From assembly GCF_000261365.1 (NCBI RefSeq), contig NZ_AJVC01000006.1, positions 372,001 through 436,000 of the forward strand: 64,000 nt of DNA, written 5' to 3'. The notes under the pieces were generated by a model. It saw only the letters and a list, made by a program, of their open reading frames with translations. It searched no databases and was not told the DNA's origin. Both the position numbers and the translations under genes were made by a program. Numbering within the stretch: position 1 is the first letter of the stretch; every line of letters begins with the position of its first letter. Of this stretch, positions 4,693-21,014 are shown in pieces. Source of the stretch: Herbaspirillum sp. GW103 (GTDB taxonomy: Bacteria > Pseudomonadota > Gammaproteobacteria > Burkholderiales > Burkholderiaceae_D).

Positions 4693-5901
4693 TTACTTCC
4701 AGGCCGCGCACTTGGACTCGGCCTTGGTGGTCCAGGCCTGCTCGGCAGGGATGGTCTGCACCAGCTTGTAGTAGTCCCACGGATACTTCGATTCCGACGG
4801 TGCCTTGACCTGATACAGGTACATGTCGTGGACCACGCGGCCATCGGCACGCAGGTAGCCGTTCTTCTGGTACATGTCGTTGAACTTGGTCTTGCGCATG
4901 GCCGCCAGCACCTTGTCGGAGTCATCGCTGCCGATTTCCTTGACGATCTTCAGGTACTGCAGCGCAGCCGAATAGTCAGCCGCTTGCAGGGAGGACGGCA
5001 TCTTCTTGCGCTCGGCAAAGTAACGCTTGGCGAAGGCGCGGGTCTCGTCGTTGGTGTCCCAGTACCAGCTGTCGGTCAGGTACAGACCTTCGGTGTTCTT
5101 CAGGGTCAGCGAATGCACGTCGTTGATGAACACCAGCAGGCCGGCCAGCTTGGCGGTCTTGGTGATGCCGAACTCGTTGGCGGCCTTCACCGAGTTGATG
5201 AAGTCGCCACCGGCGTTGGCCAGGCCGATGATCTGGGCCTTGGAGCTCTGTGCCTGCAGCAGGAAGGAGGAGAAGTCCGACGCGCCCAGCGGGTGCTTGA
5301 CCGAACCCACCACGGTGCCGCCGGAAGCCTTCACGACGTTGGCGGTATCGGATTCCAGCGAGTGGCCGAAGGCATAGTCGGCTGTCAGGAAGAACCAGCT
5401 CTTGCCGCCCTGCTTGACCACGGCCGAACCGGTACCCTTGGCCAGGGCCACGGTGTCATAGGCGTAGTGCACGGTGTAGGGCGAGCATTCTTCGTTGGTC
5501 AGACGGGCCGAGCCGGCACCGACCTGCATGTAGACCTTCTTCTTTTCGGCGGCGACCTTGGCGCTGGCCAAGGCAGTGCCGGAGTTGGTACCACCGATGA
5601 GCATATCCACGCCCTGCTGGTCGAACCATTCACGGGCCTTGCTGGCGGCCACGTCGGCCTTGTTCTGGTGATCGGCGACCAGCAGTTCGATCTTCTTGCC
5701 GTTGATCGCACCGCCCATGTCGGCGATGGCCATCTTGATGGCTTCCGCACCACCCTGGCCGTCGATGTCCGAATACACACCCGAGATATCGGTGATGAAA
5801 CCGATCTTGATCACATCACCCGAGATCTGTGCCGAAGCCGGCGCGGTCGCGAATGCCGCAGCGGCTGCGGTGACGGCCAGTGCCATTGCCTTGAGTTTCA
5901 T
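4693..5901 (-). CDS. livK: Branched-chain amino acid ABC transporter, periplasmic substrate-binding protein
   Basis: This is a 402-residue type I periplasmic binding protein. Residues 1-24 form a clear signal peptide (MKLKAMALAVTAAAAAFATA, cut after ASA). The mature part has the family features DVIKIGFITDISGVYSDIDG and a central Rossmann-like core with GSARLTNEECSPYTVHYAYD. It delivers the amino acid or related ligand to LivHM. It sits between the ATPase genes and the permease genes; a strong hairpin precedes it in the transcript, which often accompanies unequal expression of binding proteins. Ligand specificity is not certain. Confidence 0.93.
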   Translation of the reverse strand: MKLKAMALAVTAAAAAFATAPASAQISGDVIKIGFITDISGVYSDIDGQGGAEAIKMAIADMGGAINGKKIELLVADHQNKADVAASKAREWFDQQGVDMLIGGTNSGTALASAKVAAEKKKVYMQVGAGSARLTNEECSPYTVHYAYDTVALAKGTGSAVVKQGGKSWFFLTADYAFGHSLESDTANVVKASGGTVVGSVKHPLGASDFSSFLLQAQSSKAQIIGLANAGGDFINSVKAANEFGITKTAKLAGLLVFINDVHSLTLKNTEGLYLTDSWYWDTNDETRAFAKRYFAERKKMPSSLQAADYSAALQYLKIVKEIGSDDSDKVLAAMRKTKFNDMYQKNGYLRADGRVVHDMYLYQVKAPSESKYPWDYYKLVQTIPAEQAWTTKAESKCAAWK

Positions 5902-12222: not shown

Positions 12223-12419
12223 GTCTGCCAATAACTTGCCGAAAAGATATTGAATTGGCGTGAATACAGGCAACAAGGACTTGAGATCCTCGTTTTCCTG
12301 CTGAACCCAAAGGACTTTTCTCTCGCTTAATCGGTTTGCCAAGGGCTTTTCTGCTGGTTTTGGTGCTTGAAAGTCAACTTTTTGGAAAGATGTCCACTGC
12401 GCACGCGCTTTCGGTTCTT

Positions 12420-12640
12420 TAATTTAGCTGTGGATATATATAAATAGTAGTAGTAGTTAACGTCGCCAAAAACTGTGGATAAGTCGGTTTACACGAAAAA
12501 AATCAAGACTTTAGCTTTCTGATAAACGCTTGGTAAGCTTCTGCATTGTCCAGGCACAGATTCTGGACAAAATTTCGTCCGTGGATAAAACGGCGAGATA
12601 TACCCAAAACGCCCAGCGGATATGCAGAGACTTATCCACA
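12420..12640. other. oriC: Candidate oriC module 1: DnaA boxes, AT-rich element and DnaA-trio
   Basis: From left to right there is a one-mismatch DnaA box TGTGGATAT (12429-12437), an AT-rich stretch, four TAG triplets (12445-12456), TTAAC, a 12-base GC-richer spacer, and the perfect box TGTGGATAA (12474-12482). Read on the minus strand this is box, GC-rich spacer, CTA repeats and AT-rich DNA, the basal unwinding layout described for bacterial origins. CGTGGATAA (12580-12588) and a perfect inverted box TTATCCACA (12632-12640) follow. The wider gap 12223-12670 holds no other gene that I can see. Confidence 0.82.
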
Positions 12641-12670
12641 GGGCGCCTTCAAACCCGCGAAAAACAAGGT

Positions 12671-12973
12671 ATGGATAACCCAAAACCGTTCCGCGTCGCC
12701 ATTTCACCCTCGGGTTTGCAATTTGAACAAGTTCCTGGACTGTCGATTTTGCAATCTGGGTTGCGTGCCGGTATCCGACTGCCCAACTCTTGTCGGAATG
12801 GCACTTGCCGGACCTGCATGTGCAAATTGTCCACAGGCGACATCGCGTACCAGATCGAATGGCCAGGATTGACCCGCGAAGAGAAGGCTGAAGGCTGGAT
12901 CCTGCCCTGCGTGGCCCAGGCGTCTAGCGACCTGGTGCTGGAAGTCCCTGGAGCGCTCGACCTCAGCGCTTGA
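12671..12973 (+). CDS. 2Fe-2S ferredoxin (plant type), small
   Basis: The protein is 100 residues. I start at ATG 12671 (MDNPKPFRVAISPSGLQFEQ) because homology begins there; a longer frame from 12530 reads through origin sequence. The cluster-binding motif is CRNGTCRTC (C-x4-C-x2-C) near residue 40, with the fourth cysteine in ILPCVAQ near residue 79. It is a one-electron carrier, and the partner cannot be read from context. It lies between the two origin modules and may be read through during initiation. The ribosome site is weak (AAGG two bases before ATG). Confidence 0.87.
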   Translation: MDNPKPFRVAISPSGLQFEQVPGLSILQSGLRAGIRLPNSCRNGTCRTCMCKLSTGDIAYQIEWPGLTREEKAEGWILPCVAQASSDLVLEVPGALDLSA

Positions 12974-13020
12974 TGTCTTGTCCACCGCTGCTGGCCAGCG
13001 CAGACCATTTCAGGCCGCCC

Positions 13021-13029
13021 TGTGGATAA
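13021..13029 (+). other. Perfect DnaA box between the two origin modules
   Basis: TGTGGATAA lies 48 bases after the ferredoxin stop codon. It adds to the cluster of DnaA boxes of modules 1 and 2. A near match, TTTTCCACA, occurs about 43 bases to the right. Confidence 0.7.
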
Positions 13030-13279
13030 AAAAAGGCAACAGAGCCCCGGCAGCGGTCGCAGGCGCTCTTTGTTTTCCACAGCAGCATGCCCCCTGCCTG
13101 TCTTATCCCCTTGTGCCTTGGCGAGCCCACCAGTGCCTCCGAGACCAGCGCCCCGTGTTTTCTCTTTTCTTGCTGCATTGAGCTTGCCTCTACGCACAGG
13201 CTGTGACAGTGGTCGCTGACCGACTGCAGGCCAAGCCGCGTCGCGGGCGAAAGCTCGCGCGCTTAGGCTTTAAATCCAA

Positions 13280-13490
13280 GCTGTTTATAAAATTAGTAGT
13301 GATAGTTAACGCCCTGCGTCTGCTGTGGATAACCTCGTTTACGCGAGAAAAATCAGCTGTTTACAGCAAGGACAAGGCCTTGGGCAAGCTCTGTATGACG
13401 CGATCACCGATCTTGGATAAAAATCCGCCTTTGGATAACTTTTTGACTTTTCCCCAATCGGTGAAAAAGTTATTCAGAACTTTATCCACA
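13280..13490. other. oriC: Candidate oriC module 2: diverged copy of module 1
   Basis: The same order as module 1 is seen: AT-rich TTTATAAAATTA, triplets TAG TAG TGA TAG (13294-13305), TTAAC, a GC-rich spacer, then the perfect box TGTGGATAA (13324-13332). The spacing from trio to box is 18 bases here and 17 in module 1. Right of the box, CTCGTTTACGCGAGAAAAAT resembles module 1. Further boxes are CTTGGATAA (13412-13420), TTTGGATAA (13430-13438) and an inverted perfect TTATCCACA (13482-13490). The whole gap 12974-13745 has no convincing gene. Confidence 0.8.
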
Positions 13491-13682
13491 GGCAACTCCG
13501 AAATTGATGGATTCGTGTCGATCCGGGGTGGAATTTCAGGAAGTCACCGATTTCGGGCATTTGGTCCCCGATTTCGCACCTTGGCAGGGGAGAAACAGGG
13601 GCCGCCAGGCATGATTTCATGCAATTTCCCCACAGGCGGAAAAAGCAAACGGCTGCCATCGTACGCAGACGAGGCCCTGAAA

Positions 13683-19218: not shown

Positions 19219-19613
19219 CGGCGGTTATTTATCTTATCCACAGCCGGAATGTCACATCATTTCATTTGCCCACAGGGGAAATCGGGGACAGGATCCGTCC
19301 CTCTCTCAGGTTTTGCACAGGCTGTTACAAAAAACCGCGTCCCCAAGGATGAGCTTGTGTTTTCCACAAGATCGTTACTCTGTCCCCCTATCACCCGCCC
19401 CTCAAGCGCCTTTGCGTGAACACGACGAAGATGCCTGCTGCGCAGCCTGTGGATAGATGAAGTTTTTCAGGGTTTTTTGCCGGATCGCCTGTGGATAACT
19501 TCAGTTTACCGGAGTAAAATGCGTCCCTCGTTTCGCGCCCGGACGACATCGTCCACAGGCCCGTCCCCTGGACGCGGCGGTCGGGCGCCGCAATCATCCG
19601 ACAAGAAAGCTTC
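19219..19613 (+). promoter_or_regulatory. dnaA upstream region with DnaA boxes
   Basis: This 395-base gap has no gene. It holds an inverted perfect box TTATCCACA (19234-19242), TGTGGATAG (19448-19456) and a perfect TGTGGATAA (19490-19498). Just right of the last box, CAGTTTACCGGAGTAAAATG resembles the sequence next to the boxes of the two origin modules. No TAG/CTA trio is seen here, so I read it as the autoregulated dnaA promoter region rather than the unwinding site. Confidence 0.65.
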
Positions 19614-21014
19614 ATGGAAAACTTCTGGCAGGCCTGCTCCCACAAACTTGAGCAGGAGCTGACGCCTCAGCAATACAGCGCCTGGATCAAGCCGCTGGTC
19701 CCGCTCGACTTCGAGGACGGGCTGCTGCGCATTGCCGCGCCCAATCGCTTCAAGCTGGACTGGGTCAAGACGCAGTTCGCCAACCGCATCACCGCGCTGG
19801 CCTGCGAATACTGGGACGCGCCCACCGAAGTGCAGTTCGTGCTGGACCCGCGCGGCAACCAGGGCCGCCGCCCGGCCGCCAACGCGCAAGCCAATGGCGG
19901 TGGCGCCAGCGGCCTGGGTCTGCCCAACCACGAGCAACTGCACCTCGATCCGGAACCGGCCCAGCCGGTGCGCGCGGTAGCCCCGCGCCAGGAACAGTCG
20001 CGCATCAACCCGGTGCTGACCTTCGACAACCTGGTGACCGGTAAAGCCAACCAGCTGGCCCGCGCAGCAGCCACCCAGGTGGCCAACAATCCCGGCACGT
20101 CCTACAACCCGCTGTTCCTGTACGGCGGTGTGGGTCTGGGTAAAACCCACATCATCCACGCCATCGGCAATCAGGTGCTTGTGGATAACCCGGGCGCCAA
20201 GATCCGCTACATCCACGCCGAGCAATACGTACGCGATGTGGTGACGGCTTACCAGCGCAAGGGCTTTGACGATTTCAAGCGCTATTACCATTCGCTGGAC
20301 CTGCTGCTGATCGACGATATTCAATTCTTCGGCGGCAAGAGCCGCACCCAGGAAGAATTCTTCTACGCCTTCGAAGCCCTGATCGCGGCCAAGAAGCAGA
20401 TCATCATCACCAGTGATACCTATCCCAAGGAAATCAGCGGCATGGATGACCGCCTGATCTCCCGCTTCGACTCCGGCCTGACGGTGGCCATCGAGCCGCC
20501 CGAGCTGGAGATGCGGGTGGCGATCCTGATGAAGAAAGCTTCCGCCGAAGACGTGGTGCTGTCCGACGACGTCGCCTTCTTCGTGGCCAAGCACCTGCGC
20601 TCCAACGTGCGCGAGCTCGAAGGCGCCCTGCGCAAGATCCTGGCCTACTCCCGTTTCCACGGCAAGGACATCACCATCGACGTGGTCAAAGAAGCCCTGA
20701 AGGACCTGCTGTCGGTACAGAATCGCCAGATCTCGGTGGAAAACATCCAGAAGACCGTGGCCGATTTCTTCAACATCAAGGTCGCGGATATGTATTCCAA
20801 GAAGCGCCCGGCCAACATCGCCCGACCGCGCCAGATCGCCATGTACCTGGCCAAGGAGCTGACCCAGAAGAGCCTGCCGGAAATCGGCGACCTCTTCGGC
20901 GGGCGCGACCACACCACCGTGCTGCACGCCGTGCGCAAGATCGCGGCCGACCGTGCCAAGAGCCCGGAGTGTAACCATGAACTGCACGTGCTGGAGCAAA
21001 CCCTGAAGGGTTGA
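19614..21014 (+). CDS. dnaA: Chromosomal replication initiator DnaA
   Basis: The protein is 466 residues. Domain I begins [20 protein letters not shown], followed by a short linker (about residues 85-130). The AAA+ domain has Walker [10 protein letters not shown] near residue 173 and Walker [11 protein letters not shown]. The C-terminal helix-turn-helix carries the signature [15 protein letters not shown], which reads the DnaA box. It assembles on the boxes listed in this window and opens oriC. A perfect DnaA box lies inside the gene (20180-20188). rpmH and rnpA, often next to dnaA in other bacteria, are absent. Confidence 0.99.

Follow-up and report, generated by a model that had tools for sequence, protein, structure and literature searches.

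A candidate chromosomal origin built from two complete E. coli-type oriC units in Herbaspirillum

Introduction

Bacterial chromosomes are taught as single-origin. The locus described here, in a window of 64,000 nucleotides (the whole stretch of DNA that was analysed) from Herbaspirillum sp. GW103, raises the question of whether replication starts at one origin split into two parts or at two origins lying side by side. The window is part of a 5.05-Mb genome in six contigs and holds two similar modules 850 bp apart, which an initial annotation had described as a duplicated or bipartite oriC. We propose that the region is probably the chromosomal origin with two complete, separately built E. coli-type oriC units, not two halves, and a candidate for a redundant, methylation-marked origin. 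The E. coli-type oriC, TAG triplets and the occurrence of GTWWAC near Burkholderia origins are already known. A literature search, mostly outside subscription journals, found no report of natural tandem complete origins as an Oxalobacteraceae trait and no report of GTWWAC fixed beside R1.

Results

Anatomy of the two modules

The initial annotation had given the same order of elements for both stretches (AT-rich DNA, triplets, TTAAC, a 12-13 base spacer and a perfect DnaA box), and all of these were present. The features are listed below, with offsets relative to the R1-like box of the same copy. The AT-rich parts were delimited from the sequence and from columns that are invariant in 12 Herbaspirillum genomes.

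12420..12444, + strand: copy A, AT-rich part of the unwinding region
12445..12456, + strand: copy A, TAG triplets (DnaA-trio-like), TAGTAGTAGTAG
12456..12461, no strand: copy A, GTTAAC (GTWWAC), -18
12474..12482, - strand: copy A, perfect DnaA box, R1-like, TGTGGATAA
12487..12492, no strand: copy A, GTTTAC (GTWWAC), +13
12501..12513, + strand: copy A, IHF-like site WATCARNNNNTTR, +27
+88: copy A, further weak DnaA box with two mismatches
12580..12588, - strand: copy A, weak DnaA box, +106
12632..12640, + strand: copy A, inverted perfect DnaA box, R4-like, +158
12671..12973, + strand: putative 2Fe-2S ferredoxin-like gene between copies A and B, named from its sequence
13271..13293, + strand: copy B, AT-rich part of the unwinding region
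13294..13305, + strand: copy B, interrupted TAG triplets, TAGTAGTGATAG
13305..13310, no strand: copy B, GTTAAC (GTWWAC), -19
13324..13332, - strand: copy B, perfect DnaA box, R1-like
13337..13342, no strand: copy B, GTTTAC (GTWWAC), +13
13351..13363, + strand: copy B, IHF-like site, +27
13359..13364: copy B, third GTWWAC, +35, overlapping the IHF-like site
13430..13438, - strand: copy B, weak DnaA box TTATCCAAA, +106
13482..13490, + strand: copy B, inverted perfect DnaA box, R4-like, +158
19614..21014, + strand: dnaA, followed by dnaN (21669) and gyrB (22912), all named from their translations

TAG triplets had been noted for both modules and were found in both, but the run in copy B is broken (TAG TAG TGA TAG). 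The IHF consensus that is matched at +27 in each copy was taken from general knowledge. The distance from the first box to the inverted perfect box was exactly 158 bp in copies A and B alike, and the 40 bp to the left of the spacer had an AT content of 75% in A and 72% in B. An ungapped comparison of 12430-12650 with 13280-13500 gave 114 identities in 221 positions (52%), compared to a mean of 53 (sd 6.4) over all offsets in the window and 78 for the best unrelated offset. The likeness noticed to the right of the boxes proved to be a 33-nt repeat with 82% identity. Beyond what the initial annotation had listed, inverted perfect boxes lie at 12632 and 13482. The stretch 12380-13520 as a whole held 11 DnaA boxes with at most one mismatch (9.6 per kb), whereas the remainder of the window had 0.25 per kb. 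The pattern TAGTTAAC-N8..16-TGTGGATAA had two matches in the 5.05-Mb genome, both of them modules A and B, and the backwards control had none. The locus appears to hold duplicated origin DNA, as the initial annotation had it, with two modules that each carry a full box set.

The modules are built like E. coli oriC, with an unwinding region, R1, an IHF-like site at +27 and an inverted R4 at the far end. In E. coli oriC the IHF-like sequence likewise lies at +27, whereas the inverted R4 lies at +180 from R1 and not at 158 bp. When the modules of the window and of 20 relative regions were measured, an inverted box was found at +156 to +159 in 40 of 43 (the 44th module, whose box reads TGTGGAAAA, was left out of the spacing count). 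An exact IHF consensus at +27 was present in about half of them (22/43), compared to 0.4% of shuffles. A profile built from the modules matched E. coli oriC weakly (14.9 bits, E 0.0012). Since the E. coli order is complete in both copies, "duplicated" was the right word for the locus and "bipartite" the wrong one.

The order and strand of the box, the GC-richer spacer, the TAG triplets and the AT-rich DNA are also those of the basal origin unwinding system of B. subtilis, and to this extent the DnaA-trio layout proposed earlier fits. The search rule given in the accessible part of PMC8287927 requires three or more NAN triplets no further than 16 bp from a DnaA box, however, and both copies fail it, as do all but 8 of 44 modules. 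The distance to the first run of three triplets is 17 bp in copy A and 24 bp in copy B. Unlike in the basal unwinding system, a GTWWAC site lies between the triplets and the box, and the last TAG is therefore separated from the box by 17 bases in A and 18 in B. The survey of unwinding modules, as described in that part of PMC8287927, keeps one candidate per origin, so that duplicates would not show.

Position of the replication start

A GC-skew minimum at the modules, which the initial annotation had proposed as a check, was found in four relatives (G172, G054, G117 and G048), where the cumulative GC-skew minima lay within 9 kb of the modules. Depending on the binning, the minimum fell at 111 or 120 kb in G172 (modules at 110.6-111.7 kb), at 100 or 108 kb in G054 (100.3-101.3 kb), at 207 or 208 kb in G117 (199.9-200.4 kb) and at 199 or 198 kb in G048 (199.2-200.2 kb). 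In each of the four, 0 of 2000 block shuffles were as deep as the minimum. The distance from the modules to dnaA was 49 kb in G172, 61 kb in G054 and 60 kb in G117; in G048, where gyrB is near the contig start, it was more than 160 kb, with no dnaA within 200 kb.

In the window's genome, a 304-kb stretch showed a weak skew with a minimum 24 kb from copy A that was not significant (505 of 2000 block shuffles were as deep). A second Herbaspirillum, G129, had its plain-skew minimum 68 kb off (18/2000) and its codon-position-3 minimum 14 kb off. Codon-position-3 skew placed the minimum of G048 at 202 kb, with modules at 199-200 kb, and that of G117 134 kb off; it was no help in the window's genome, G129 or G117. 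Herbaspirillum skew does not decide where replication starts. The KOPS-like motif GGGNAGGG showed no switch at the modules in any of four genomes tried. Its best switches lay 49-63 kb from the modules in the window's genome, about 185 kb in G117 and about 150 kb in G048, and there was no best switch anywhere inside the G129 stretch. We take the motif to be uninformative near origins, yet it counts against our reading of the locus.

The distance of about 6 kb to dnaA was confirmed, with the start of dnaA at 19614, about 6.3 kb from the first box of copy B. An origin beside dnaA was considered and rejected: perfect boxes occur there at 19234 and 19490, but the core pattern and the profile match only the two modules, and in the four relatives the skew minimum stays with the modules despite the distant dnaA. 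The box at 19490 (- strand), upstream of dnaA, is followed by GTTTAC at +14 (19490-19509), a box/GTWWAC spacing like that of the modules.

Modules across Oxalobacteraceae

Conservation in relatives was clear. A profile search of 195 Oxalobacteraceae genomes found the module in 178, with three copies in 29, two in 108 and one in 41, and none in 17; at least two modules were thus present in 137 of the 195. Stricter filters may lose weak copies from these counts, and the profile was built from 39 modules chosen by TAGTTAAC, so that origins lacking GTTAAC score lower and their copies are perhaps under-counted. Given the 41 one-module genomes and the 17 with none, two copies are not obligatory. The strict pattern was found in 76 of the 195 genomes and the backwards pattern in two. 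Among the matches listed, carriers of the pattern included Collimonas, Glaciimonas, Janthinobacterium, Massilia, Undibacterium, Oxalicibacterium and Herminiimonas, together with scattered matches in unrelated genomes such as Pedobacter.

Of 20 relative regions, 18 had two or three modules, whose starts were separated by 0.35 to 3.6 kb. At least one neighbour (GMC oxidoreductase, aldehyde dehydrogenase, LysR or AsmA-like) was common to the window and 19 of the regions; L095 shared none. Copies were direct and threefold in L084, L089, L090 and L091, divergent in L085, L086 and L100, and convergent in L087, around LysR and dehydrogenase genes. All 12 Herbaspirillum genomes had the order LysR, copy A, ferredoxin, copy B and AsmA-like, with both copies in the same direction. 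The ferredoxin-like gene was rejected as a part of the system: it stands between the copies in 12/12 Herbaspirillum genomes and in 0/19 regions of other genera, and among the 20 relative regions a gene of this kind is found there in the Herbaspirillum one alone. In one Herbaspirillum region (L227, genome G116, 1887-2172) the ferredoxin-like gene matches in two pieces, as if frameshifted. In the genera of G010, G020, G029, G034, G036 and G043, the one module present is found about 1.3-1.5 kb upstream of gyrB; these modules perhaps adjoin dnaN rather than the LysR/AsmA locus.

Across the 12 Herbaspirillum genomes, 99 of 235 bases were invariant in copy A and 96 of 235 in copy B, compared to 7/270 and 1/270 in the flanks, the right flank of copy A being partly coding. 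Both Herbaspirillum copies are equally constrained. This bears on whether the locus is a bipartite origin as in B. subtilis and H. pylori, in which one module would be opened, the other would gather DnaA and both would be essential. As in those origins, there are two clusters of boxes, about 850 bp apart here, with a gene between them, and all 12 Herbaspirillum genomes agree in order and direction. The published bipartite origins considered here unwind in one half only, whereas each cluster in Herbaspirillum keeps an unwinding region, R1, an IHF-like site and an R4-like box, and the two have equally many invariant bases. The number and direction of modules also vary among relatives, either orientation occurs and 41 genomes have one module, so that a bipartite origin appears unlikely.

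The same conserved parts speak to a second module that would act as a DnaA-titrating or -resetting site (datA- or DARS-like), tuning the timing of initiation without being an origin. E. coli provides the precedent, since it uses box clusters near its origin for DnaA titration and resetting. Such sites, however, need neither an AT-rich triplet region nor a fixed spacing from R1 to the unwinding region, and both are conserved in copies A and B; we give this explanation only a very slim chance.

A tree of 44 modules, in which many forks were weak and the bootstrap had not settled, paired the Herbaspirillum copies by position across genomes (100/98 and 95/79), and the copies of a Massilia/Janthinobacterium group were also paired by position. 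In other genera, copies from the same genome paired with each other. The divergent pairs of L085 and L086 (g23) were near-identical within a genome, as if by gene conversion. One module could be the origin and the other a decaying duplicate, kept by repeated duplication and gene conversion, and it is in line with this that same-genome copies are nearest relatives in several genera (branches of 0 and 0.045 in G161). The pairing by position in Herbaspirillum and Massilia/Janthinobacterium, within the limits of that tree, and the equal constraint on the two Herbaspirillum copies, seen in one genus, argue against it and make it improbable.

The arrangements also touch on a possible division of labour, in which each module would load one helicase for one direction, and two modules would be needed for two forks. 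According to the accessible part of PMC10201434, unwinding modules are polar and a bidirectional start needs two helicases, which would favour such a scheme. Direct, divergent, convergent, three-copy and single-copy arrangements all occur, however, and we regard it as scarcely credible. Two complete origin units remain our preferred reading of the locus.

GTWWAC sites and the orphan methylase

The TTAAC that had been listed as a layout element is present in both modules, but a GTWWAC methylation site, of which it would form part, accounts for it better. In 400 kb of the contig there were 35 GTWWAC sites (0.087 per kb), five of them within the two modules. Among 44 modules, GTWWAC occurred at -19 to -17 in 42 (GTTAAC in 32, GTAAAC in 10) and at +13 (12 to 14) in 20, the latter with all four WW forms. 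It was the commonest of 16 like palindromes in the module cores, with 110 copies compared to 4 to 22 for the seven of equal composition, and these 110 were out of 233 copies in 417 kb. Methylation sites flank R1 in E. coli as well, where GATC lies at -13 and +13; here GTWWAC near -18 and +13 takes the place of GATC. Between -120 and +200, GATC was absent from copy A, occurred three times in copy B and 14 times in E. coli. SeqA was searched for in the window's genome and, unlike in E. coli, none was found.

The window's genome encodes a close homologue (410 bits) of PDB 8urk, which we take to be M.BceJIV. An orphan methylase of B. cenocepacia targets GTWWAC, which is also reported near the origins there (accessible part of PMC7364216), and an orphan methylase with this target is reported from Ralstonia as well (accessible part of PMC5390034). 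The present system resembles this BCAM0992/M.BceJIV system of Burkholderia and Ralstonia in having the methylase homologue and, as in the B. cenocepacia report, GTWWAC near origins. As far as its accessible part goes, the B. cenocepacia report places GTWWAC in the proximity of origins, whereas here its positions next to R1 and the triplets are fixed, and the origins of genomes without the enzyme lack it.

GTWWAC at the modules and the methylase go together across the family. The methylase was found in 158 of 195 family genomes, and the 37 outside this list were counted as lacking it. At least two modules were present in 134/158 genomes with the methylase and in 3/37 without (G137 and the incomplete G044 and G108). 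Twenty of the weakest-scoring modules, taken from 16 methylase-bearing genomes, were inspected, and 18 had GTWWAC beside the triplets (16 by the limits of the script and two by eye where the script found no box); G038 and G043, which like G024 carry the methylase and a single copy, have a GTWWAC-free module. In 26 methylase-lacking genomes with a module readable by nhmmer, GTWWAC stood beside the triplets in 0/26 and anywhere in the core in four, the box being hard to place in some. Relaxed searches gave few and weak extra matches, both in the 37 genomes that lack the methylase (E up to 1) and at 28 loci from these genomes. Nine g5 genomes, close to Herbaspirillum in the GyrB tree, had no GTWWAC beside the triplets and one module each at E 0.01. 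In a GyrB tree of 29 genomes, the presence of the methylase changes at least four times.

Outside the family, the methylase was found in seven sampled genomes of the order, five from f31 with GTWWAC-rich modules and two from f10 (G333 and G513) with no usable module. One f31 genome without the enzyme had no GTWWAC in its module. In the Burkholderia family f31, several GTWWAC-rich triplet-R1 modules were seen per contig (L314-L322, L358), with up to about 385 kb between them (G442); an E. coli-like inverted box at +180 to +182 was present in some and lacking in others. Paired weaker modules 245-610 bp apart were seen in other Burkholderiales (L323, L324, L325 and L327, from f49, f27 and f51); none of these had GTWWAC near the triplets, and no methylase was found in their genomes at E 1e-60.

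Discussion

In the origin that we propose, DnaA would bind the R1-like box adjoining the unwinding region in each unit. A bend made by IHF at +27 would let DnaA on the inner and R4-like boxes fold back, and the helicase would be loaded where the AT-rich and TAG-triplet stretch opens. Each of the two units is probably able to start replication, and both may fire. A fork from one unit would copy the other within a second, and there would thus still be one start per cycle. The orphan adenine methylase of this genome probably acts on the GTWWAC sites that flank R1. Directly after replication, the two units would be in the hemimethylated state at the same time. A second start could be blocked by this, as happens through GATC and SeqA in E. 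coli, and methylation might in this way time initiation.

More tentatively, and with less confidence than in the two units themselves, we suggest that the family keeps two or three workable origins at one locus, with the orphan GTWWAC methylase in the role of Dam and a putative reader in that of SeqA. Where the methylase is lost, the marks would be lost and the array would shrink to one origin. This would offer a candidate function for the orphan GTWWAC methylase.

With two or three units in most sampled family genomes, in any direction, the family lends itself to a test of redundant adjacent origins with one start per cycle. Exact places are also suggested for Burkholderiales origins; the authors of PMC4948915 call the position of the B. 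cenocepacia chromosome 1 origin uncertain. Origin finders that keep one candidate, or that look beside dnaA, would miss such arrays.

Putative double origins, likewise with more than one oriC-like region per chromosome, are described in PMC4403523. The accessible part of its table lists Acidaminococcus, Dehalobacter, Ralstonia and Ochrobactrum, and no entry there describes a tandem array at a single locus shared across a family. E. coli oriC also differs from the family's two or three copies. In a collection of complete E. coli genomes, 5370 of 5426 matched a 62-base piece of oriC, at 5372 places and with at most two per genome, so natural doubling of oriC is rare there.
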